Of a stretch of 64,000 bases of DNA, positions 1,397 to 23,273 are shown piece by piece. Position numbers and translations under genes: made by a program. The first letter of the stretch is position 1. Each line of letters opens with the position of its first letter. The DNA comes from Litchfieldia alkalitelluris (GTDB taxonomy: Bacteria; Bacillota; Bacilli; Bacillales; Bacillaceae_L), in the NCBI RefSeq assembly GCF_002019645.1, contig NZ_KV917374.1, forward strand, positions 2,740,696-2,804,695. The letters are read 5' to 3'. Below the pieces are notes generated by a model. It was not told the DNA's origin. It saw only the letters and a list, made by a program, of their open reading frames with translations, and searched no databases.

Positions 1397-2113
1397 ATGG
1401 AAAAGGAAGCAAAAATTCTTGTAGTTGATGATGAAGAACGTATTCGTCGCCTATTAAAAATGTATTTAGAGAGAGAAAATTATCAAATTGACGAAGCTGA
1501 AAACGGAGAAATAGCATTAGAGAAGGCAATCAATTCTGAATATGACTTAATATTGTTAGACCTAATGATGCCAGGAAAAGACGGAATCGAGGTATGTAAG
1601 GATATACGTGAAAAGAAATCCACTCCAATTATTATGTTAACAGCTAAAGGAGAAGAAACTAACAGAGTTCAAGGCTTTGAGGTTGGAACTGATGACTATA
1701 TTGTTAAGCCATTTAGTCCACGTGAAGTTGTATTAAGGGTAAAAGCTTTACTTAGAAGATCTTCACCAACTTCTTTTTTACAGACAGAAACGACAACTAA
1801 GGATGTTATTGTTTTCAGTCACTTAACGATTGACAATGACGCACACAGGGTTACTGCTGATGGGAAAGAAGTCAGTTTAACCCCTAAGGAATATGAATTA
1901 TTATTATTCCTTGCCAAAGCCCCGGATAAAGTATATGACCGTGAGGCTTTATTAAAAGAGGTTTGGCATTATGAATTTTTTGGAGACTTGAGAACAGTAG
2001 ATACACATGTGAAGCGACTAAGAGAAAAATTAAATAAAGTATCACCAGATGCTGCTAAAATGATTGTTACTGTATGGGGAGTAGGCTATAAATTTGAGGT
2101 TATAAATGAATGA
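1397..2113 (+). CDS. resD: Response regulator ResD
   Basis: ResD is an OmpR/PhoB-class response regulator that activates genes for aerobic and anaerobic respiration and cytochrome assembly. The receiver domain covers about residues 5-120, with the acidic pair D11/D12, the phosphoacceptor D55 (in [10 protein letters not shown]), the switch threonine in MLTAK and the conserved K104 in VKPF. A winged-helix DNA-binding domain follows at about 135-235 ([12 protein letters not shown], then [13 protein letters not shown]). At 238 residues it has the family length. The ATG at 1397 is preceded by TTTGGAGGG. It overlaps resE by 4 nt, so the two are translationally coupled. The assignment rests on the domain content and on the resC-resD-resE order. 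Confidence 0.96.
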
Positions 2114-3897
2114 TGTTTTGGCGAAGTGTAGTAGGTAAGCTATGGATTACCATACTTTTACTAGTTTCCTTTGTACTATTTATATTAACGGTTCTTCTCC
2201 TCCAACATTTTGAGAACTTTTTAGTAGACGAAACAGAAGCTGACTTAAATCAGTTAGCAACAAAAATAGCAACGACAATCGAAAATTATGAAGATAAAGA
2301 TGTAGCGCGATCGATTGCGTGGGAATTTGCTGATGATGTAACAAAAGTTTTAATTATCTATGATGAGGAAACCTACTGGTATTCTCCTGAATTAGATTCA
2401 ATTGGGAACTTACCTATTTCATATTTTATGGATGATCCGGAGTTGGAAAAAGTATTCTCAGAGGATAAGACCGTAAGTGAGAAAAAGTATTTAACTGATT
2501 CAACGTTAAAATCACAATTTCCGGATCAGATGTTTGTTGTTGGTGCTCCTCTTCATTTCTCAAGCGGTAAAACTGGAGCTGTATTCTTGTATCAATCGTT
2601 AAATATTGTTGAAGAAACATCACGACGGACAACAAGCTTCATTTATTTAGCCGCAGGAGTTGCAATTATCTTAACAACCATTTTTGCTTTTTTCCTGCTT
2701 ACTAGGATTACTGCGCCTTTAAGGAAAATGAAAGAAGCAGCGTTTGAACTTGCTAAGGGGAAGTTTGATACAAAGGTTCCAATACTTACGAATGATGAAA
2801 TAGGGGAACTTGCAACTGCTTTTAATCAAATGGCACGACAATTAAAATTTAATATTAATGCCGTTAACCAAGAGAAAGAACAACTTTCTAGTATCTTATC
2901 AAGTATGGCAGATGGTGTAATTACCTTAAATAGAGATGGAACGATATTAATTACGAATCCTCCGGCAGAGCGTTTTCTACAAGCATGGTATTACCAACAA
3001 GGGATGAAAAATAACCCTGGTGAAGAGCTGCCATCAGAAATTCGAGAGTTATTCCAAAAAGCTGTAAGCTTTGAGAAGGAACAGGTAACCGAAATCAATT
3101 TACAGGGGAGAAATTGGGTTATTTTGATGAGCCCACTATATAACCAAACCTATATTCGTGGGGCTGTGGCAGTTCTTAGAGACATGACTGAGGAAAGACG
3201 TTTGGATAAGTTACGTAAAGATTTTATTGCAAATGTTTCACACGAACTTCGTACACCAATAGCAATGCTTCAAGGATATAGTGAAGCAATCATTGATGAT
3301 ATTGCCAGCACTGAAGAGGAGAAAAAGGAAATTGTTAAGGTTATTAATGATGAGTCATTAAGAATGGGAAGACTTGTTAATGAACTTCTTGACCTCGCAC
3401 GGATGGAAGCAGGACACATTACTTTAAATAAAGAAGACGTAAATCTTGATCATTTCATTGAAAAGGTTATTCGTAAGTTCCAAGGACTTGCAAAGGACAA
3501 GGGTATTCATTTGAAATCGATAAAAAATCAATCAGAGCTTGGATATCTTCTTATCGATGTTGATCGAATTGAGCAAGTTTTAACCAACTTAATCGATAAT
3601 GCAATTCGCCACACAGATGAATTCGGTTATGTGACTTTAACTAGCACTGCTCAAGAAAATGGTGTTTTGTTTGAAATCTCGGATTCAGGAACAGGTATAC
3701 CAGAGGAAGATCTTCCATTTGTATTTGAGCGTTTCTATAAAGCTGATAAAGCTAGAACAAGAGGCCGTTCAGGTACAGGACTTGGGCTAGCAATTGCGAA
3801 GAATATTGTCGATTCACACAACGGTGAAATATCAGTACACAGCAAAATAAACGAAGGAACGACATTTACCTTCTTTTTACCCCGAAAATATGAGTAA
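2110..3897 (+). CDS. resE: Sensor histidine kinase ResE
   Basis: ResE is the membrane sensor kinase and phosphatase for ResD. Visible domains in order: TM1 at about residues 11-31; an extracytoplasmic sensor region to about 172; TM2 at about 176-198; HAMP at about 199-250; a PAS domain at about 255-360; the HisKA helix with phosphorylated H378 in NVSHELRTP; and the HATPase domain with N-box NLIDNAIRH (N496 region), DSGTGI and GTGLGLAI. At 595 residues it matches the family. ATGATG at 2110 offers two adjacent starts; the first overlaps resD by 4 nt. Control by oxygen limitation or nitric oxide is known for B. subtilis ResE and is inferred here. Confidence 0.95.
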
Positions 3898-4029: not shown

Positions 4030-4225
4030 ATAATAGGTGGGGTTGTTCTCATTGATAACAACCCCTTAAAAGGGAAGTCGGTGTAAATCCGGCGCGGTCC
4101 CGCCACTGTAAATTGATTATTCTCTAAACAAGTGCCACTGTCAACATTGATGGGAAGGCTTAGAGAATGGGAATCATAAGCCAGGAGACCTGCCTATTAG
4201 TGTATCACCAATTATTTTCTACGCG
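4030..4225 (+). promoter_or_regulatory. Cobalamin (AdoCbl-type) riboswitch aptamer
   Basis: The segment has the hallmarks of a class I cobalamin riboswitch: an AAAAGGGAAGTCGGTG core at about 4067-4082, then TCCGGCGCGGTCCCGCCACTG at 4088-4108, and the invariant B12 box AGCCAGGAGACCTGCCT at 4179-4195. It lies 200-400 nt upstream of a surface-protein and ECF-transporter operon on the same strand. Cobalamin riboswitches repress B12 synthesis and uptake genes when the coenzyme is plentiful, which fixes the likely substrate of the operon below. Confidence 0.95.
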
Positions 4226-4230
4226 GATAG

Positions 4231-4324
4231 AAGGAGGTGTAAGGCATTTTTAGCTTGAGATTTTTCAAATTTCTCGCTGATTTTATGCGTTACAGCAATC
4301 TCCTTTAGGGAGATTTTTTTTTGT
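4231..4324 (+). terminator. Riboswitch expression platform: terminator with possible antiterminator
   Basis: AATCTCC and GGGAGATT (4297-4315) form a hairpin followed by nine T, a clear intrinsic terminator 105 nt before the first gene. AAGGAG at 4231-4236, just after the aptamer, can pair with CTCCTT at 4300-4305 and would break the terminator stem. This fits transcription attenuation: ligand bound, terminator forms; ligand absent, antiterminator forms. The pairing was found by eye and not folded. Confidence 0.75.
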
Positions 4325-4428
4325 TTAATAGGTTTTTTTTACTATTTTCTAAAACTAGTTAGTAAAAGAAACTAGTAAAACGCAATTGATTTAAAAATTA
4401 AATACGTCTAAAGTAAAAGGGGAAAAAA

Positions 4429-6306
4429 ATGTCTAGAAAAATTACTACATCTTTTATTGCTTTTGCATTTTTGCTAATTCAGCTTTCATTCTTTTATCCT
4501 GTACAAGCATTAGCTCAGGCAGTTGACACAGCTAATCTAGTAGTAGAAGATAGCACTGGGAAAATTTTAGCAGAGGGCGATTTAGAAATAACTGAGGATT
4601 CAACAGCCCTTACATTATTACAAAACTTAGTTGGAACTGAAAATGTTGAACTAGATTACTATGAAGATAAACCCTATATTGTAGGAATTAATGGATTAAA
4701 CTCTTACTCTGATGAAGTTGGTTTTCATTATTGGTCAATTATCTATAATGGGGAGTATTCTGAGCTTGGTGTTTCAGAAATCGTCCCAAAAGCTAATGAT
4801 GTCATTCAGTTTGTGTTTGTTACATGGTTTAATGAACCAGTTGCCGAGCATGGAACAGTTACGATCAAAAATGGCTCTAGTGTATTAGTCGATTCGGAAA
4901 GCTTTGAAATTACGGAAGGTAAAACTGCCTTGGATGCTCTTAAGGAGGTCGTAGGCGAGGAAAATGTATCAATTGTGGATGATCCAACCTATGGTGCTTA
5001 TATTACAGGGATTAATGGGATTATGTCTGAAGGAACGTATTATTGGGCTTTCTATGTAAATGGTGGATTTGCAGAAGAAGGCATCGGTTCTTATCAAGTT
5101 CAACCTGAAGATGAGCTGTTATTTGAATATGTTTCTTGGGATACAACAACTCCTGAAGATCCTGGTACTGAGGAACCTGAACCAACAGATCCTGAGGAAA
5201 TAGATCAAACGGAGCTTAATAACAAAGTGAAGGAACTACTTCCAGTTACAAAGAACTATTTATTAAATGCTGGTATCAATACTGCATGGGAAGCAATTGC
5301 GATTTCACAATTTGATGGAAGTGTTCCTGCTTCATACCTAACAGCTGTAAAACAAGAATTAAGAGATAAAGAAGGAACTTTCCGTAATGTCACGGACTAT
5401 GAACGTCATGTTTTAGGTATATCAGCAGCTGGAGGTAATCCAACAGATATAGAAGGATATAACTTAATTGAAAAAATTTATAATAATGAGCGTATGACAA
5501 ATCAAGGCTTAAATGGGCCAATCTTTGCTCTTATTGCATTTGATAGTAAACAATTTGAGATCCCAAGTGATGCACTTTGGACAAGAGATAAATTAATTAC
5601 TTATATCCTTGATGCTCAAAATACGGATGGTGGATTCGGCTTGTTTGGAAGTACGTCAGACGTTGACGTAACTGCGATGGCTCTTTCTGCACTAGCTAAC
5701 TACCAAGATAACAATCGTGTAAAAGAAGCAACTAATCATGCTTTAGCTTGGTTGTCATCAGTTCAAAATGAAAATGGAGGTTTCTCATCTTCAAATGGTG
5801 AAGCTAGTGAATCAACAGCTGAAGTGATTATTGCTCTTTCTTCATTAAAAGTAAATCCTATGGACGAGATGTTCACAAAGGAAAATGGCAACTTAATCAG
5901 TCATTTACTTCAATTTGGACTAGAAGATGGACAATTTAGCCATTTAATAGATCAAGGTGGAAATGATATTGCAACAGAAAAGGCATTCTTGGCTCTTGTA
6001 GCTTATAATCAATTCTTAGCAAGTAAAAACTCTGTATATGACTTCACACTTACACCAGTTATCGATGTTGAGGAGGAAGTGAAGCAACCAGAAGTTTCTA
6101 AACCAAACCCAGTGAAAGAGGCTCCAACCGAAAGTGAAACACAACAACCTTCGTCTGACGATCAACAAAAGGATTCTGATTCAGATGTGGGGCATCCATT
6201 GCCTAATACAGCAACTTCAGCGTATAATGTATTATTAATTGGATTGTTACTTTTAGTAGTTGGTGTAGCTTTTTACACTTATAGTAATAAAAGAAAGTTA
6301 ATCTAA
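4429..6306 (+). CDS. Cell-wall-anchored intrinsic-factor-like protein (2x DUF4430, alpha-toroid, LPNTA)
   Basis: This 625-residue surface protein probably binds cobalamin or a related corrinoid. It has a signal peptide (1-30, cut near ALAQA). Two DUF4430/transcobalamin-like beta domains follow, at about 34-134 and 142-237, each with a YYW/FHYW-x-YxNG core and ending F(V/E)(F/Y)V(T/S)W. After a Pro/Glu linker comes a helical domain (about 260-560) with prenyltransferase/terpene-cyclase-like repeats (AQNTDGGFG, TAMALSALANYQ, VQNENGGFS). An acidic linker leads to LPNTA (591-595), a hydrophobic helix and a KRK tail, a sortase signal of the LPNTA kind. Animal intrinsic factor and transcobalamin join the same two folds in the opposite order. 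The first gene after the cobalamin riboswitch, it has the Shine-Dalgarno AAAGGGG. Function is inferred; the domains and context are visible. Confidence 0.85.
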   Translation: MSRKITTSFIAFAFLLIQLSFFYPVQALAQAVDTANLVVEDSTGKILAEGDLEITEDSTALTLLQNLVGTENVELDYYEDKPYIVGINGLNSYSDEVGFHYWSIIYNGEYSELGVSEIVPKANDVIQFVFVTWFNEPVAEHGTVTIKNGSSVLVDSESFEITEGKTALDALKEVVGEENVSIVDDPTYGAYITGINGIMSEGTYYWAFYVNGGFAEEGIGSYQVQPEDELLFEYVSWDTTTPEDPGTEEPEPTDPEEIDQTELNNKVKELLPVTKNYLLNAGINTAWEAIAISQFDGSVPASYLTAVKQELRDKEGTFRNVTDYERHVLGISAAGGNPTDIEGYNLIEKIYNNERMTNQGLNGPIFALIAFDSKQFEIPSDALWTRDKLITYILDAQNTDGGFGLFGSTSDVDVTAMALSALANYQDNNRVKEATNHALAWLSSVQNENGGFSSSNGEASESTAEVIIALSSLKVNPMDEMFTKENGNLISHLLQFGLEDGQFSHLIDQGGNDIATEKAFLALVAYNQFLASKNSVYDFTLTPVIDVEEEVKQPEVSKPNPVKEAPTESETQQPSSDDQQKDSDSDVGHPLPNTATSAYNVLLIGLLLLVVGVAFYTYSNKRKLI

Positions 6307-6324
6307 ATCAAAATACTAAACATG

Positions 6325-6358
6325 GCTGACTTCAAAAGATCTTCTTTTAAGTCAGCTT
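6325..6358 (+). other. Intercistronic hairpin in the cobalamin locus
   Basis: GCTGACTT(C)AAAAGA and TCTTTTAAGTCAGC form a long stem 18 nt after the surface-protein stop codon. The sequence after it (TTCATTATTGTT) is only moderately T-rich. It could be a leaky terminator or a processing/stability hairpin that lets the first gene be expressed at a different level from the transporter genes. Confidence 0.6.
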
Positions 6359-6446
6359 CATTATTGTTGTCATAAAAGTCTATATTGGAAAAACACTAAG
6401 GAACAACCTGTATCGAAAAAATCCGATTTTAGGTGGTGAGAGTTAA

Positions 6447-7178
6447 ATGTCACTTAGAAAAATACAAATTCTTATCATTTCTTTATTACTTCTGCTTGTA
6501 ACCGGATGTTCTACTGGTCATTCGCAAGATTCAATGAGCGCTACTGACCATCAAAATCGTCAACTCTATTCAAGTGAAAAGAACGCAGATAATATAGTGA
6601 AAAGCAGAAATGAAGAATCAGAAAATACAACCAAAGCAAATGAAACTTCTGAGACTAATCAGGAAAAAGAAAAAGAGAAAACAGAGAGTCAATCTGAGCA
6701 ACAAGAAAATACAGTGAAAAATACGACACCGCCTAATGAACAAAAAAAGGAAGAAACAAAAGAAAGTACGAAGAATACAGATACAAATACAAAAAAGACA
6801 ACTACACAAAAAAAACAGGATACAACAAAGGAAAAAACGACAACCACTCCTGAAGAAAAAGAGTTTGTCAGTATAACGATTAATGGAAAAGAAACGATTC
6901 TTTCAAAAACAAGGGTAGCATATCAATCAGGTGATACGGTATTAAAAATCCTTCAAAGAGTGACAAAGGAAAAAGGTATACCACTAAGTGTCAGAGGAAA
7001 TGGAGGAACTGCCTATGTTGAAGGAATAAATAACCTATTTGAATTTGATTACGGTCCTGAAAGTGGATGGATATACAAAGTGAATAGCGTGTCACAAAAC
7101 ATAGGTGCCGGGGCAAGTGAAATTAAAAGTGGAGACGAAATCAATTGGATTTATATTGAGAAATATGGAGAAAACTAG
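6447..7178 (+). CDS. DUF4430 lipoprotein, probable cobalamin receptor
   Basis: This 243-residue lipoprotein has a lipobox ending VTGC21. A long, low-complexity, Lys/Glu/Thr/Asn-rich spacer (about 30-143) follows, then a single DUF4430/transcobalamin-like domain at about 144-243 with the typical SGWIYKVN core and a closing EINWIYIEKY strand. The spacer would hold the domain away from the membrane and inside the wall. It lies 140 nt after the wall-anchored DUF4430 protein and overlaps the start of the ECF T-component gene, which suggests a membrane-proximal binding protein that hands substrate to the importer. Shine-Dalgarno GGTGGTGAG precedes the ATG. The substrate is inferred from the riboswitch. 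Confidence 0.85.
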   Translation: MSLRKIQILIISLLLLLVTGCSTGHSQDSMSATDHQNRQLYSSEKNADNIVKSRNEESENTTKANETSETNQEKEKEKTESQSEQQENTVKNTTPPNEQKKEETKESTKNTDTNTKKTTTQKKQDTTKEKTTTTPEEKEFVSITINGKETILSKTRVAYQSGDTVLKILQRVTKEKGIPLSVRGNGGTAYVEGINNLFEFDYGPESGWIYKVNSVSQNIGAGASEIKSGDEINWIYIEKYGEN

Positions 7179-8055
7179 TCTGAGATTTCATTTTTACCAT
7201 CCAATCGTTCATTTAATATACTTTTTAGGATTAATGGTATTAGCTACGTTAATTTCTCATCCTGGTTATTTAACCATTTTTCTGTTACTACTCATCATTT
7301 TACAGTTCACTTATAATGGTGGGCGCCAGCTTAAAAACTGGTCTGTTTACATTGTGTTATTGCTACTTTTTATAATTATTATTAATCCACTCATGAATCG
7401 ACGCGGAAGTCATATTTTATTTTATCTTGGTGAAAACCCTATTATGTTAGAAGGTCTTGTATATGGCATTAGGATGGCATTATCATTAGTTTGCATTTTG
7501 TTTATTTTCTTTGTATTTAATGTCATATTAACGGATATTAAGTTGTTTTATTTATTTGGTAAAATTGCCCCTAAGTCTGCACTGTTATCAATACTTACTA
7601 TGCGTTTTGTTCCTCTTCTTAAGAGAAGGTTGAATGAAATTATAATGGTTCAGCGTAGGAGAGCAATTACTACAGATCATGGTAAATTAAAACAAAAATT
7701 ACGTTCTGGAATGATCATTATTCAGGTTTTATTAACATGGTCATTAGAAGATGCGATACAAACAGCAGATTCAATGAAGGCTAGAGGTTATGATAGTAAA
7801 GCTAGATCTATGTATCAACGTTACTATTTCACATCAAGTGATTTAATCACGATAGGTTCATTGCTGTTTCTTATATTGATCATTCTTTTTGGTTTTTTAA
7901 ATTTTGGAAGCGGAAATTTAACCATTTATCCAGAATTACAATTAAAAGCGATATCGGGCTCAGAAGTGTATTTTCTACTCCCATTTTGTTTATATATTAG
8001 TTTACCGTTATTGATCGAATTAAAGGAGTGGATAAGGTGGAAATTTTTCGCTTAG
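7165..8055 (+). CDS. ECF transporter T component (transmembrane coupling protein)
   Basis: EcfT proteins couple the two ATPases to the substrate-binding S protein in energy-coupling-factor importers. This one has about six hydrophobic segments and the coupling-helix signature SMKARGY, with a second basic motif at VQRRRAITT. The frame is open further upstream to 7105, but that part lies inside the lipoprotein gene and reads as non-membrane sequence. I take the ATG at 7165, which overlaps the lipoprotein gene by 14 nt. The product has 296 residues. Its place between the lipoprotein and the ATPase gene gives a dedicated (group I) ECF system, not one sharing a housekeeping module. Confidence 0.9.
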   Translation: MEKTSLRFHFYHPIVHLIYFLGLMVLATLISHPGYLTIFLLLLIILQFTYNGGRQLKNWSVYIVLLLLFIIIINPLMNRRGSHILFYLGENPIMLEGLVYGIRMALSLVCILFIFFVFNVILTDIKLFYLFGKIAPKSALLSILTMRFVPLLKRRLNEIIMVQRRRAITTDHGKLKQKLRSGMIIIQVLLTWSLEDAIQTADSMKARGYDSKARSMYQRYYFTSSDLITIGSLLFLILIILFGFLNFGSGNLTIYPELQLKAISGSEVYFLLPFCLYISLPLLIELKEWIRWKFFA

Positions 8056-9704
8056 AACAGATAGAATTCTCTTATCCTGAGCAAAAAGATCAAATCTTAA
8101 ATGGAATAAATCTATCAATTCAGCAGGGTGAATTTGTTGTTTTATGTGGAAAAACAGGTTGTGGGAAAAGTACATTGTTGAAGCATTTAAAACCAGAACT
8201 AACCCCTATTGGCACAAGAAGAGGAAACATCTATTATTTCAATCAATCACTCGAACATACTAATGCGAGCAGGCTTATTTCTGAGGTTGGGATGGTGTTC
8301 CAAGATCCTGAGAATCAAATTGTAATGGATGAAGTCTATCAGGAATTAATTTTTGGTATGGAGAACATGGGAATTGAAAACGACGTTATGAGAAAGCGTT
8401 TGGCGGAACTCGTACAATTCTTTGATTTAGATTCTTTATTGTATAAAAAAACATATGAAATATCGGGTGGGCAAAAACAGATGATCAATTTGGCATCAAT
8501 TCTTCTTTTGCAGCCAAAGGTACTTCTGTTGGATGAACCAACATCCCAATTAGACCCAATCTCTTCAAAAGAATTTATTCAACTTCTTTATCGAATCAAC
8601 CAGGAGTTTGGCATAACAATTATTATGGTTGAACATCGTATAGAGGAAGTTCTTCCATTAGCCGATCGCCTTATTTTATTAGAGCAGGGAAAAATCATAT
8701 ACGATGGTCAACCTAAGGATGTCATTTATGATTCTTTGAGTAGTTCAAATAATTTTTTTAAACCATTTATTCCTTCAATTTCAAAGCTGTTTTTAGAGGT
8801 AGAGGAAAATGTGGAATCAAGTGCTATACCACTGACAGTAAAGGAAGGGAAAAAGTGGATAAGTGAACTTACTATCAATTATGCGAAAGAATTGACAGAC
8901 CAAAAAATTATCAATAATAAGGAAGTCCTTATAAATTGTAAACATGTATATTTTCGGTATAGTCGTGATAGTGCATATATTCTAAAAAACTTAAATTTAG
9001 CAATAAATAAGGGCGACTTTTTTTCAATAGTAGGTAAAAACGGGTCAGGAAAGTCAACACTATTAAAAGTTTGCGGTCTCTTACTAAAGCCTGAAAGAGG
9101 GAAGCTGTTTTATAAAGGAATGTCTAGCCGAGCAACAAAAGAAAACATCTTACAAAAGGAAGTAGCATACCTTCCGCAAAATCCTAAATCCTTCTTTACA
9201 CAAGATACTTTAAAAGAAGAGTTATCATTTCAGGCTGAGCAATTGGATATAGAAAATAGAAACACCACTATCTCGGTGATTGTTAATCAATTTAACCTTC
9301 AGAAAATATTAGATAGACATCCGTATGATTGTAGTGGGGGAGAACAACAAAAGGCTGCCTTAGCATGTTTATTATTAAGTGATCCGGAAATTCTCTTTAT
9401 CGATGAACCTACTAAAGGATTAGATCCAACAGCAAAAGAACAACTGGGCCAGTTACTACAAGATTTACATAAAGAGGGCAAAACCATTGTCATGTCCACT
9501 CATGATATCGAGTTTGCAGCAAGGTACTCTACAAGAAGTGGGATGATTTTCGATGGTGATCTAACAGCTATTGGTTCGTCTGCTGGCTTTTTCAAAGGAA
9601 ATTACTTTTATACGACATCAATCAATCGGATAACAAGAGATCATCCTGGACTTGAGGCGGTCACAATTGAGGAGGTTAGGGAGAAATGGGAAATGCCAAG
9701 GTAG
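8037..9704 (+). CDS. ECF transporter ATPase, two ABC domains fused
   Basis: One chain carries both ATPases of an ECF importer. Domain 1 has Walker A GKTGCGKST (about residue 41), signature SGGQKQ and Walker B LLLDEPTSQ. Domain 2 (from about 300) has Walker A GKNGSGKST, signature SGGEQQ, Walker B ILFIDEPTKG and a switch histidine in STHD. The start is a GTG. The frame opens with GTG at 8028, but GGAG at 8024-8027 is correctly spaced (9 nt) only for the GTG at 8037, giving 555 residues. It overlaps the T-component gene by 19 nt and the S-component gene by 19 nt, so the three are tightly coupled. Confidence 0.92.
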   Translation: MEIFRLEQIEFSYPEQKDQILNGINLSIQQGEFVVLCGKTGCGKSTLLKHLKPELTPIGTRRGNIYYFNQSLEHTNASRLISEVGMVFQDPENQIVMDEVYQELIFGMENMGIENDVMRKRLAELVQFFDLDSLLYKKTYEISGGQKQMINLASILLLQPKVLLLDEPTSQLDPISSKEFIQLLYRINQEFGITIIMVEHRIEEVLPLADRLILLEQGKIIYDGQPKDVIYDSLSSSNNFFKPFIPSISKLFLEVEENVESSAIPLTVKEGKKWISELTINYAKELTDQKIINNKEVLINCKHVYFRYSRDSAYILKNLNLAINKGDFFSIVGKNGSGKSTLLKVCGLLLKPERGKLFYKGMSSRATKENILQKEVAYLPQNPKSFFTQDTLKEELSFQAEQLDIENRNTTISVIVNQFNLQKILDRHPYDCSGGEQQKAALACLLLSDPEILFIDEPTKGLDPTAKEQLGQLLQDLHKEGKTIVMSTHDIEFAARYSTRSGMIFDGDLTAIGSSAGFFKGNYFYTTSINRITRDHPGLEAVTIEEVREKWEMPR

Positions 9705-10372
9705 GTATTATTTTTCTAATTGCCTTTCCACCTCTTTTATTACTTTTGTCCTTTATTCTACAAAATGAATTTTTTCTTATATTTGGAATGGGCATATTAA
9801 TTACCTCATTATTTGTATTTTTTCGGTCGTTTGAGAAAAGACCGATTGATGCAAGAGAAATTGTGTTATTGGCTACTATTTCTGCAATTGCAGCAGTAAG
9901 TAGAATCCCTTTCTCAATGCTACCGAGTGTGCAACCAACGACATTCATAATTATAGTAAGCGGAATTGTATTTGGTGCAGAAAGTGGTTTTTTGATTGGG
10001 GCGGTTGCCGCTCTTGTATCGAACATCTTTTTAGGACAAGGCCCATGGACACCTTGGCAGATGTATAGCTGGGGAATGATAGGGCTAATTGCAGGACTAT
10101 TACGTCATACAGTTTTCATGAAGTCAAAAATAGGACTTGCTGTATATGGAATTGTTGTAGGTTTTGCATTTGGTTGGATTATGAATTTATATTTTTTAAT
10201 TGGGTTTATCAAAGATGTTTCATGGAAAGAGTTTATTGCCTATTTTGCAACAAGCTTTTATTTTGATCTTGGGCATGCCATCTCAAATTTATTTTTTATT
10301 CTAATCTTTGGATCTGCTTGGATTAAAATAATGACGAGGTTTAAAGTGAAATATGGTCTTTTAACAAAATGA
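9686..10372 (+). CDS. ECF transporter S component, probable cobalamin binder (CbrT-like)
   Basis: This 228-residue membrane protein is the substrate-specific subunit of the importer. It has an N-terminal helical hairpin, then the conserved S-component block with QPTTFIII, GFLIG and SNIFLGQGPWTPWQM, and further helices. The GQGPWTPWQM region resembles S proteins associated with cobalamin or its precursors. With the riboswitch upstream this points to cobalamin, but a corrinoid precursor such as cobinamide, or a lower-ligand base, cannot be excluded. Start ATG 9686 follows GAGGTTAGGGAG and lies inside the ATPase gene. It is the last gene of the operon. Confidence 0.85.
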   Translation: MGNAKVGIIFLIAFPPLLLLLSFILQNEFFLIFGMGILITSLFVFFRSFEKRPIDAREIVLLATISAIAAVSRIPFSMLPSVQPTTFIIIVSGIVFGAESGFLIGAVAALVSNIFLGQGPWTPWQMYSWGMIGLIAGLLRHTVFMKSKIGLAVYGIVVGFAFGWIMNLYFLIGFIKDVSWKEFIAYFATSFYFDLGHAISNLFFILIFGSAWIKIMTRFKVKYGLLTK

Positions 10373-10382
10373 TTAAATTCTT

Positions 10383-10408
10383 AGCTTGAACTTTCAAGCT
10401 TTTTTTTG
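10383..10408 (+). terminator. Intrinsic terminator of the cobalamin uptake operon
   Basis: AGCTTGAA and TTCAAGCT form an 8-bp inverted repeat directly followed by eight T. Confidence 0.85.
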
Positions 10409-10677: not shown

Positions 10678-11229
10678 ATGGACGCCGTGTTTCAAAAACT
10701 ATATGAAAAATATCATCACGATGTCTTTTCTTTTTTATTTTATATGGTCAAAAATCGCGAACAAGCTGAGGATCTTGTTCAAGAAGTATATATAAGAGTA
10801 TTAAAATCCTATGACCGATTTGAAGGGAAAAGCAGTGAAAAAACGTGGCTGTTTTCAATTGCGAGACATGTAGCAATCGACTCATTTAGAAAACAAAAGG
10901 GCTGGAAGCAAAAAATCATGGAATCGTTTGATTGGAATAAACAGCAGGTTCAAGATTTTGCTCCATTACCTGAGGAAATCGCTGTTCAAAATGAACAAGT
11001 ACAAATGATGTATAAATGTCTTGATAAATGCACGGTTGACCAGCGAATGGTGTTGGTATTGCGTTATATTCAATCATTATCGATAAATGAAACGGCAGCG
11101 GCCTTAGACTGGACAGAGAGTAAGGTAAAAACAACTCAACATCGTGCTCTAAAGGTGTTAAAGGGTTATATGGAAGAATTGGGAGTAAAGGAGGGAGCTT
11201 TTGATGAAAAGGTCAGAGTGGAGCGATGA
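10678..11229 (+). CDS. sigX: ECF RNA polymerase sigma factor SigX
   Basis: SigX directs transcription of envelope-modifying genes in response to cationic peptides and wall stress. The 183-residue protein has region 2 (residues about 8-75: AEDLVQEVYIRVLKSYDRFEG, SSEKTWLFSIARHVAIDSFRK) and region 4 (about 110-165: DQRMVLVLRYIQSLSINETAAAL, ESKVKTTQHRALKVL). It is close to B. subtilis SigX in both blocks. The ATG at 10678 follows AGGGAGG. It overlaps the anti-sigma gene by about 26 nt, so the pair is co-translated. The position after resE is also that of B. subtilis sigX. Confidence 0.95.
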   Translation: MDAVFQKLYEKYHHDVFSFLFYMVKNREQAEDLVQEVYIRVLKSYDRFEGKSSEKTWLFSIARHVAIDSFRKQKGWKQKIMESFDWNKQQVQDFAPLPEEIAVQNEQVQMMYKCLDKCTVDQRMVLVLRYIQSLSINETAAALDWTESKVKTTQHRALKVLKGYMEELGVKEGAFDEKVRVER

Positions 11230-22367: not shown

Positions 22368-23273
22368 ATGTTATCTCAAGAAGGTAAATATAATATAAAA
22401 GCAATATCAAAAATGTTAGGAATTCAAGCAGGTACTTTACGTGCTTGGGAAAGAAGATATAAAATGATTGCCCCAACACGCAATGAATCAGGGCACAGAC
22501 TTTATAGTGATGAACACGTTAGAGTATTAAAATGGTTGATTGATAAAGTAAATAAAGGATTTACAATTAGTCAAGCAGTTTCTATTTTAGAAAGCACAAA
22601 ATTATCAACAGGGTATTCCGAGAACGAGAAGGTGGAGGAATATTCACTCCAGCTTCAGAACGAATTATTAGAGGCCTTAATTAGCTTTGATGAGCACCAT
22701 GCACATGAGCTAATGAATAAGGCATTTAGTATGTATACAATAGATAAGGTAGTTATTGATATACTAGGTTCATTACTCGTACAGATTGGACATCTGTGGG
22801 AAGATAAAAAGATTACAAGTGCGCATGAACGTTTTGCATCATCATTCCTTAGGTCAAGAATTGGTATGATCCTCCATAATCTACCTGTAAATGGAATGCT
22901 TCCAAAAGTGGTATCAGTTTGCGGGCCAGGTGAGTGGCATGAATTGGGACTTCTAATATTTACATTATACCTACGACGAAAAGGCTTCGAGGTTATTTAT
23001 ATTGGGACAGGCATTGCTGATGGTGACCTAGAAATTGTACTTGATGAAATCAAGCCGAAATTCCTCTTCATTTCTTGTACAATGCCAGGTAATGTTGATA
23101 AAACTCTTGAACTTGTAGATAGCTTAATTAAATCTTTTCCCTCTCTTCATATTGGATTAGGTGGGGCAGCCTTAACAAATGCAGAACATCGTTTAATAAG
23201 TACCTATCAATCGTTGATTGTTGGCGAAAAACAGTCACATTGGGATGAATGGCTTATACAAAAATTAAAGTGA
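22368..23273 (+). CDS. MerR-type regulator with B12-binding domain (CarH/LitR-like)
   Basis: The 301-residue regulator has a MerR winged helix at about 8-75 (YNIKAISKMLGIQAGTLRAW, YKMIAPTR) and a two-part cobalamin-binding domain: a four-helix cap (about 90-175) and a Rossmann B12 domain (about 180-300) with E-W-H191-E-L-G, the ExHxxG form of the cobalt-ligating motif. This is the layout of CarH, which represses genes in the dark with adenosylcobalamin and lets go in light. The cap motif Wx9EH of CarH is here W144-x9-E154-R155: the histidine that becomes the second ligand in light-exposed CarH is an arginine. Shine-Dalgarno TTGGAGG. It stands alone between ypbG and mecB. Confidence 0.88.
   Translation: MLSQEGKYNIKAISKMLGIQAGTLRAWERRYKMIAPTRNESGHRLYSDEHVRVLKWLIDKVNKGFTISQAVSILESTKLSTGYSENEKVEEYSLQLQNELLEALISFDEHHAHELMNKAFSMYTIDKVVIDILGSLLVQIGHLWEDKKITSAHERFASSFLRSRIGMILHNLPVNGMLPKVVSVCGPGEWHELGLLIFTLYLRRKGFEVIYIGTGIADGDLEIVLDEIKPKFLFISCTMPGNVDKTLELVDSLIKSFPSLHIGLGGAALTNAEHRLISTYQSLIVGEKQSHWDEWLIQKLK

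Follow-up and report, generated by a model that had tools for sequence, protein, structure and literature searches.

A candidate corrinoid-scavenging operon with transcobalamin-like surface proteins and a CbrT-type ECF importer in Litchfieldia alkalitelluris

Bacterial vitamin B12 uptake is called poorly understood in PMC5997447. The 64 kb stretch of L. alkalitelluris DNA that we analysed (the window) holds a cobalamin riboswitch followed, 5' to 3', by genes for a wall protein, a DUF4430 lipoprotein and the T, ATPase and S components of an ECF importer, and the question is whether these form a system that captures B12 at the wall and passes it inward. We are fairly confident that this is an operon for corrinoid scavenging, repressed through the riboswitch, in a host that is likely a B12 auxotroph, and that in it corrinoid would go from the wall protein to the lipoprotein and on to the CbrT-like S component.

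The locus and its five proteins

The riboswitch, the five genes and all features given below are on the + strand. The lipoprotein and T genes, the T and ATPase genes, and the ATPase and S genes overlap by 14, 19 and 19 nt, an arrangement as in a coupled operon, and a hairpin search found a terminator-like hairpin at the operon end (10383..10400). All elements listed in the original prediction were recovered on this single strand, with Pfam, Rfam and sorting-signal matches in agreement. In the host genome DUF4430 is confined to this locus (3 matches in a genome-wide profile search).

The wall protein (4429..6306, 625 aa) has a signal peptide, recognized by eye, then two DUF4430 domains, an alpha-toroid, a linker and an LPNTA signal. 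The first DUF4430 domain, transcobalamin-like and beta in fold (4519..4845), is delimited by profile matches and the structure model, and the second (4831..5154) by these and Pfam; together they score 81.4 bits over two stretches, with a cut-off of 23.8. The alpha-toroid (5200..6060) was located by Pfam, where Prenyltrans scores 32.7 bits, by profile search and by structure comparison. The LPNTA sortase motif is at residue 591 (6199..6213), within an LPxTATN sorting signal of 44 bits (cut-off 32). The ectodomain is matched by 4 plasmid records and 3 phage records, none of which covers 80 % of it in one place.

The lipoprotein (6447..7178, 243 aa) has a lipobox with Cys21 and one DUF4430 domain (residues 162-237, 60.5 bits against the cut-off of 23.8). 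Between them is a spacer of 119 residues, rich in T, E, K, S, N and Q (6510..6866), so the long spacer that had been predicted is there.

The importer genes encode a CbiQ-like T component (7165..8055; PF02361, 53 bits), an ATPase with two ABC domains in a single chain (8037..9704; Pfam and family profiles) and an S component of the cobalamin (CbrT) type (9686..10372; phmmer to 6fnp_A, 1.6e-18). A profile of the S component matched CbrT (6fnp) in the PDB at 4e-40, with the next match at 0.009, and no cobalt-type S was among its matches. By sequence homology above that to other S components, it is CbrT-type, and the dedicated ECF importer claimed for the locus stands.

The riboswitch in the host and across genomes

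The cobalamin riboswitch aptamer (RF00174; 4018..4211) covers the full model, 1-189, and scores 126.9 bits (gathering score 31.5; E-value 1.6e-31). No other Rfam match within the window reaches the gathering score, and in the host genome this is one of two cobalamin riboswitches. Downstream, a hairpin search found a terminator-like hairpin and then a T run (4297..4315), the likely expression platform, and folding of 4200-4330 gave z = -4.4. We infer from this layout that the riboswitch acts through transcription termination.

We then have the genome survey that was suggested for the combination of riboswitch, DUF4430 and ECF genes. The sample was 299 genomes of the host order, of which 115 have DUF4430; the association count uses 104, as 11 DUF4430 genomes without a listed position were left out, and genomes with several domains were each entered with at least one listed DUF4430 row rather than every row. 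Counts were made with covariance models because a text-pattern search missed many real riboswitches. An RF00174 match lies upstream of DUF4430, on the same strand and within 4 kb, in 95 of the 104 genomes (median 422 bp), where about 0.1 % would be expected by chance; of these matches, three (G124, G225, G288) score below the curated cut-off and five more are under 40 bits. The five genes are complete in 68 of 80 named loci of relatives, and with this conservation and that of the upstream riboswitch we exclude chance as the origin of the arrangement. A further listing, with a match in at least 43 of 44 genomes, was kept out of the adjacency counts.

There was no RF00174 match near DUF4430 in the remaining nine of the 104 genomes. 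Six of these were scanned against all of Rfam and had no cobalamin-class match (L098, L208, L213, L214, L220, L221), and yet L208 has the full operon. Beyond the order sample, 13 of 16 named loci from Paenibacillaceae and Clostridia, scanned as two sets (6/8 and 7/8), have a cobalamin riboswitch, placed directly before the toroid or DUF4430 ORF in 11 of the 16. At L164 it lies 1.4 kb 5' of a toroid ORF that is without DUF4430, at L172 it is downstream of the DUF4430 ORFs, and the locus scan found none at L127, L160 and L177.

Tether, host and the cargo of the operon

ECF S components bind their ligand directly, and to our knowledge a separate extracellular receptor that feeds one would be unusual. 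We propose the following course. At low cobalamin levels in the cell, transcription would be able to read through the terminator of the riboswitch. Sortase would fix the exported wall protein to the peptidoglycan, as its sorting signal suggests, and the two beta domains and the alpha-toroid would bind corrinoid, as homology and fold suggest. The lipoprotein has a further beta domain, which its long tether of low complexity would link to the outer face of the membrane; it would take corrinoid from the wall protein and give it to the CbrT-like S component, and the dedicated T and ATPase, judging by their homologs, would drive uptake.

The hand-off in this scheme can be compared with tether length. 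Where a toroid ORF is present, 89 of 93 loci have a DUF4430 spacer of at least 85 residues, and where it is absent none of 27 does, at a limit that was chosen after the ranges had been seen (7 duplicate genomes, L097 and L098 were left out, and the anchor was set at residue 25 where no lipobox was found). Four toroid-bearing operons have short tethers of 39-78 residues. When genomes were picked by a long DUF4430 frame, all eight had an adjacent toroid gene, against none of the twelve picked by a short frame, a comparison that was not fully blind since G225 and G288 are of the same genus as G124, where the toroid had already been seen; several surveyed loci, including this set, were hand-picked rather than a random sample. 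In four of the eight long-frame genomes the stretch lacks T and ATPase genes; the long tether thus goes with the toroid rather than with the motor. Within one genus (g18), G109 and G137 have both the toroid and the long tether, and G030, G163, G279 and G212 have neither. No riboswitch match lies near the latter four either, and their ligand may therefore be a different one.

This correlation is what a wall-to-membrane relay would predict, and the relay in the original prediction gains comparative support from it; the hand-off itself we infer. The stronger form of the proposal is a two-station B12 relay with tether length set by the reach to the wall-side partner, and with one chromosomal slot taken by either a pair or the relay. 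We put this form forward tentatively, at somewhat below an even chance. The slot, between resE and sigX, holds in relatives either the full operon or a minimal pair of a short-tethered DUF4430 protein and an S component, presumably driven by a shared ECF motor. In the tree of S components, bootstrap is not settled and the pair group has long branches.

Minimal pairs without a wall protein at the same locus, found in 15 relatives, would also suit a wall protein that stores B12 or acts as a competitor sink, with the lipoprotein alone feeding the importer, and so would the 140-nt gap with a hairpin between the wall gene and the rest, a weak signal (z -1.8). However, a plain store would not need a tether that is long with the toroid protein and short elsewhere, and we regard this explanation as unlikely, if still the strongest competitor to the relay.

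CbiC, a marker of corrin synthesis and the only one used, is absent from the host genome. The genome nevertheless has five matches to the B12-binding family PF02310, and pieces of a class II reductase, NrdJ, were found below the curated cut-off; its second cobalamin riboswitch precedes apparent class I reductase genes. The host is likely a B12 auxotroph. Across the 299 order genomes, CbiC is present in 5 of the 115 with DUF4430 versus 51 of the 184 others (Fisher 1e-7); we took the CbiC and DUF4430 lists as the same 299 genomes because their handles agree.

Cobalt or cobinamide could be imported here instead of finished cobalamin. The T component does score with CbiQ, on an L. brevis plasmid T-A-S genes lie close to a gene for adenosylcobinamide-GDP ribazoletransferase, and CbrT transports cobinamide too, as reported in PMC5997447. 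Against this, the S component is CbrT-like, with no cobalt type among its PDB matches, and in a host lacking CbiC cobalt alone would not help. We therefore think such a cargo improbable, and less probable than a store or sink. The domains by themselves are not specific for B12, as there are loci with DUF4430 and no S gene (L214, L215) and Vescimonas has DUF4430 and a toroid beside MoxR, DUF58, transglutaminase and dockerin genes, in a stretch that lacks any ECF gene.

Animal carriers, known systems and significance

For the comparison with animal B12 carriers, a PDB search with the single lipoprotein sequence gave no convincing relative. A profile of full-length lipoproteins was set aside after mostly chance matches driven by the spacer, and for this reason the beta-domain profile was made from wall proteins. 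It matched haptocorrin (4kki, 3.4e-7), transcobalamin (5no0, 5e-4) and intrinsic factor (2pmv, 1e-3), all three of the animal carriers. On profile evidence, DUF4430 is homologous to their beta domain. Foldseek matched the ectodomain model to transcobalamin as an isolated beta domain, 5no0 (E 5.2e-5, TMt 0.71), and 5np4, an entry titled as cyanocobalamin-bound, was matched at 8.6e-5.

The structure predicted for residues 31-544 of the wall protein has a pLDDT of 90.4 and a pTM of 0.60, and the mutual placing of beta domains and toroid is not fixed in it, so that one B12 site common to both is putative only. The toroid fold that had been expected was found, C-terminal in the model, and the reversed domain order (beta, beta, alpha) is borne out. 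VIA-align matched the predicted toroid to solved toroids, with no transcobalamin among the best 50 matches, all of which were other toroid-type entries. Foldseek with the ectodomain model matched transcobalamin 2v3n (E 4.1e-5) over 328 columns, more than the beta domain by itself could account for (aligned range not given).

By profile search the toroid sequence is nearest to squalene-hopene cyclases, and its profile, searched up to E 10, gave 59 PDB matches, among them no toroid from an animal B12 carrier. PF01122, which we take to be the sequence family of the N-terminal toroid of animal carriers, is absent from the Pfam matches of the wall protein at E <= 0.1. Because of these two results and the C-terminal toroid, we did not file the wall protein in the animal carrier family. 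It shares with intrinsic factor, haptocorrin and transcobalamin a homologous beta domain and the alpha/alpha toroid fold, but it has the reversed order, two beta domains, a wall anchor and a toroid of another sequence family. An alternative in which the toroid works as an enzyme, on corrinoids or on another surface ligand, with beta domains that merely target it, we consider very improbable, as a valine replaces the last acidic residue of DxDD, the squalene-cyclase motif, transcobalamin employs the same fold for binding only, and the operon around it has a cobalamin riboswitch and an S component of the CbrT type.

Several known systems are similar in part. The Isd haem relay of Gram-positives uses NEAT domains and leads from a wall protein through a lipoprotein to an importer. 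Our system would work alike if the relay is right, but it differs in folds and ligand, and a Pfam scan at E <= 0.1 found no NEAT family in any of the five proteins (for the ATPase, among the best 25 of 49 families). BtuFCD also captures cobalamin and imports it across the cytoplasmic membrane, as a classical ABC importer rather than an ECF system; no BtuF- or BtuC-type family is among the Pfam matches listed for the five proteins, and the host may have a second uptake route of this kind. ECF-CbrT of Lactobacillus delbrueckii has the homologous S component (6fnp), but there, according to PMC5997447, S shares one module, whereas here T and ATPase are dedicated and surface-protein genes lie upstream.

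The original prediction held that this architecture had not been described. We had to reject this, since the consulted sections of Burroughs et al. 2007 (PMC1796856) already give the architecture, the paralogue, the operon and a B12 role. They describe transcobalamin-like SLBB proteins of low-GC Gram-positives, for which B12 scavenging was proposed, with a signal peptide, a wall anchor motif and, in Bacillus, a toroid C-terminal to the beta domain, as well as a paralogous second protein and an operon with CbiO/CbiQ. The present locus is, by its sequence features, a member of this predicted class of B12-scavenging operons with transcobalamin-like SLBB (DUF4430) proteins: it has exported DUF4430, a toroid with a wall anchor, CbiO/CbiQ-like genes and a paralogue, and the host has no CbiC. 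The word riboswitch has no match in the text of PMC1796856, and its consulted sections contain no mention that we found of a CbrT-type S, a tether-toroid correlation or a common chromosomal slot. What we add is the riboswitch link, the five-gene conservation, the CbiC contrast, the resE-sigX slot and the tether-toroid correlation. We found no experimental test of the 2007 prediction in the literature.

A cobalamin riboswitch, an ECF importer and a bacterial relative of the animal B12 carriers are combined at this locus, a pattern that recurs in many genera. The pattern across genomes makes a wall-to-membrane hand-off of B12 directly testable, with predictions as to the binding domain, the purpose of the tether and which genes are dispensable. 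Burroughs et al. also proposed, in those sections, that animals acquired transcobalamin-like proteins from Gram-positive bacteria, and these operons offer living relatives in which that 2007 idea can be tested.

The operon and its likely substrate

The host genome (5.43 Mb in two contigs) carries the operon between two genes that, from our reading of the ORFs, we take to be resE (2110-3897) and sigX (10678-11229). The co-directional block begins after resE and ends before sigX. On one strand and in this order, we found a cobalamin riboswitch, a terminator-like hairpin, the wall protein, the DUF4430 lipoprotein, the T component, a double ATPase, the S component and another terminator-like hairpin.

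The S component matched CbrT (6fnp, the ECF-CbrT structure; PMC5997447) at 1.6e-18 with a single sequence and at 4e-40 with a profile, while the next chains in these searches came at 0.009 and 0.025. DUF4430 is carried by 115 of the 299 genomes of the order (52/116 genera), and 107 of these 115 have a cobalamin riboswitch match (53/58 and 54/57). For 95 of the 104 genomes with listed positions, the match lies on the same strand and at most 4 kb upstream of DUF4430. Weak matches (<40 bits) account for eight of the 95, three of them below the cut-off, and at three scanned weak-match loci (L097 in G124, L206 in G109 and L210 in G225) we found the AdoCbl class, RF01482. Nine genomes are without a nearby riboswitch. 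The scan covered six of them (G030, G050, G074, G091, G136, G163) and found no cobalamin-class match; the nine also include G212, G243 and G279. Tandem cobalamin riboswitches occur as well, with three in succession in one genome (G141:C1:2849107-2850139) and two preceding the operon in another (G011:C21:661-1224).

The original prediction held that this architecture had not been described before. That cannot stand, because the architecture, the operon and the scavenging role are in Burroughs et al. 2007. In its treatment of bacterial transcobalamin-like domains, most have signal peptides, with several Gram-positive anchors; in Bacillus the toroid may be C-terminal. The operons often include a second paralogue, and in general also CbiO/CbiQ-like genes; key B12 synthesis enzymes are usually missing from the hosts, and the likely role is given as scavenging of B12 or its precursors. 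We found no experiments on a bacterial DUF4430 protein in the literature searched.

Conservation and variants

From a single scan of the species collection we obtained 186 relatives and kept 80. The five-gene set is complete in 68 of the kept loci; the other 12 are without at least one gene, some of them being cut by contig ends. Genera represented include Heyndrickxia, Metabacillus, Neobacillus, Oceanobacillus, Sporosarcina, Paenibacillus, Aneurinibacillus and Clostridium, and the full set is also present on a 592-kb replicon of Latilactobacillus curvatus. Among loci of Paenibacillaceae and Clostridia, the riboswitch directly precedes the operon in 11/16. Several Paenibacillus have a wall protein that carries a toroid at either end and lacks an LPxT signal. 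The number of DUF4430 domains ranges from 1 to 10 in 88 toroid proteins, with 22, 55, 6, 1, 1, 2 and 1 proteins carrying 1, 2, 3, 4, 5, 6 and 10, respectively. Wall proteins with 6-10 domains (L094 6394-12585, L151 2412-9389, L093 8112-13217) look as if capture capacity had been multiplied.

Some Clostridia assemblies have the double ATPase and S as a single open frame of 876-892 aa (L176, L181, L182; 11822-14470), and for L182 Pfam confirmed both parts. On the Levilactobacillus brevis plasmid pPUL102_2 (L227), T-A-S genes lie near a transposase and adenosylcobinamide-GDP ribazoletransferase, which acts in cobamide salvage.

A minimal form also occurs among relatives: a DUF4430 protein of about 120-190 residues adjoins an S component, and genes for T and ATPase are absent. 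The median gap within these pairs is 9 bp (17 loci of the first set, including L097 with its separate toroid gene). Fifteen pairs are downstream of resE, twelve of these with sigX also found, which is the position of the full operon in the window. The full operon occupies this position in three other genomes (L071, L072, L106). The slot is empty in G015, G008, G001 and G004, where resE and sigX are 205-270 bp apart by subtraction, and in G009 and G011 the pair occupies the slot and the operon is located elsewhere. When 96 S components were placed in one tree, pair and operon types separated with support of 100/99, from a rough bootstrap. Operons in the slot require two changes on this tree, so by parsimony the operon would have entered the slot twice. 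Since the two forms share a slot, the minimal pair and full operon look interchangeable, with DUF4430 plus S as the least unit.

DUF4430 with a toroid was also found away from any sign of B12. On a Vescimonas fastidiosa plasmid (L225 4831-7996), such proteins are in a MoxR/DUF58/transglutaminase/dockerin cluster, with no ECF genes within the stretch. The toroid protein there is annotated 'terpene cyclase/mutase', a label likely to give rise to misnaming. At two other loci, L214 and L215, the DUF4430 proteins lack a neighbouring S component, and the genomes concerned (G050, G243) have no RF00174 match anywhere, so these proteins probably have a different function.

The lipoprotein tether and a proposed relay

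The spacer in front of DUF4430 has a median of 141 residues in operon lipoproteins (95-285, n=64 with a lipobox match) and 24 in the short DUF4430 proteins (15-35, n=16). Selecting by frame length, we compared eight genomes whose single DUF4430 frame is long with twelve in which it is short. DUF4430 has a toroid gene beside it in 8/8 of the former and 0/12 of the latter (Fisher by hand, 1/125970). Four of these long-frame loci (L206, L207, L210, L211) encode toroid, tethered DUF4430 and S, yet neither T nor ATPase within the stretch; the tether therefore accompanies the toroid and not the motor. Over 120 loci, in counts that ignore kinship, the spacer is at least 85 residues in 89/93 with a toroid vs 0/27 without. 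Within one genus (g18), two genomes have both toroid and long tether and four have neither; those four are also without a nearby riboswitch match.

A relay predicts a long tether only where there is a partner further out. The wall protein could instead be a plain store, but a store would have no need of a long tether, and the tether is long where the toroid partner is present. The sequence data establish which components are present, what they are homologous to and how they are linked in the genome, and give predicted folds for the wall ectodomain. In the most likely mode of action, the operon would be de-repressed at low cobalamin. A sortase would attach the wall protein. The surface proteins would bind corrinoid and hand it from wall protein to lipoprotein to S component, and ATP would drive uptake.

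B12 economy of the host

CbiC is present in 5/115 DUF4430 genomes vs 51/184 others, and a search for this corrin-synthesis marker did not find it in the host genome. The host has five B12-binding-domain matches, which we take to be MetH, methylmalonyl-CoA mutase, IcmF, a radical SAM protein and a MerR-type regulator, the last confirmed by Pfam families. The regulator (22368-23273; PF13411, PF02607 and PF02310, two of them B12-binding families) is in the same window as the operon, and resembles B12-based light sensors such as CarH.

A second cobalamin riboswitch (L085 9749-9938; C1:1041748) is followed by genes reading as class I ribonucleotide reductase (L085 10077-13401). Elsewhere, nrdJ, for the B12-dependent reductase, is split into three pieces (L191 2572-6428, C1:2621571-2625427). 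A closely spaced pair of group I introns sits in the first gap and its surroundings, and the second gap, of about 1.2 kb, had no Rfam match. With the riboswitch before the class I genes and NrdJ encoded elsewhere, B12 supply may possibly set the choice between the two reductases. Taken together, the missing CbiC, the B12-binding domains, NrdJ and the second riboswitch indicate that the economy of this genome is that of a B12 scavenger.
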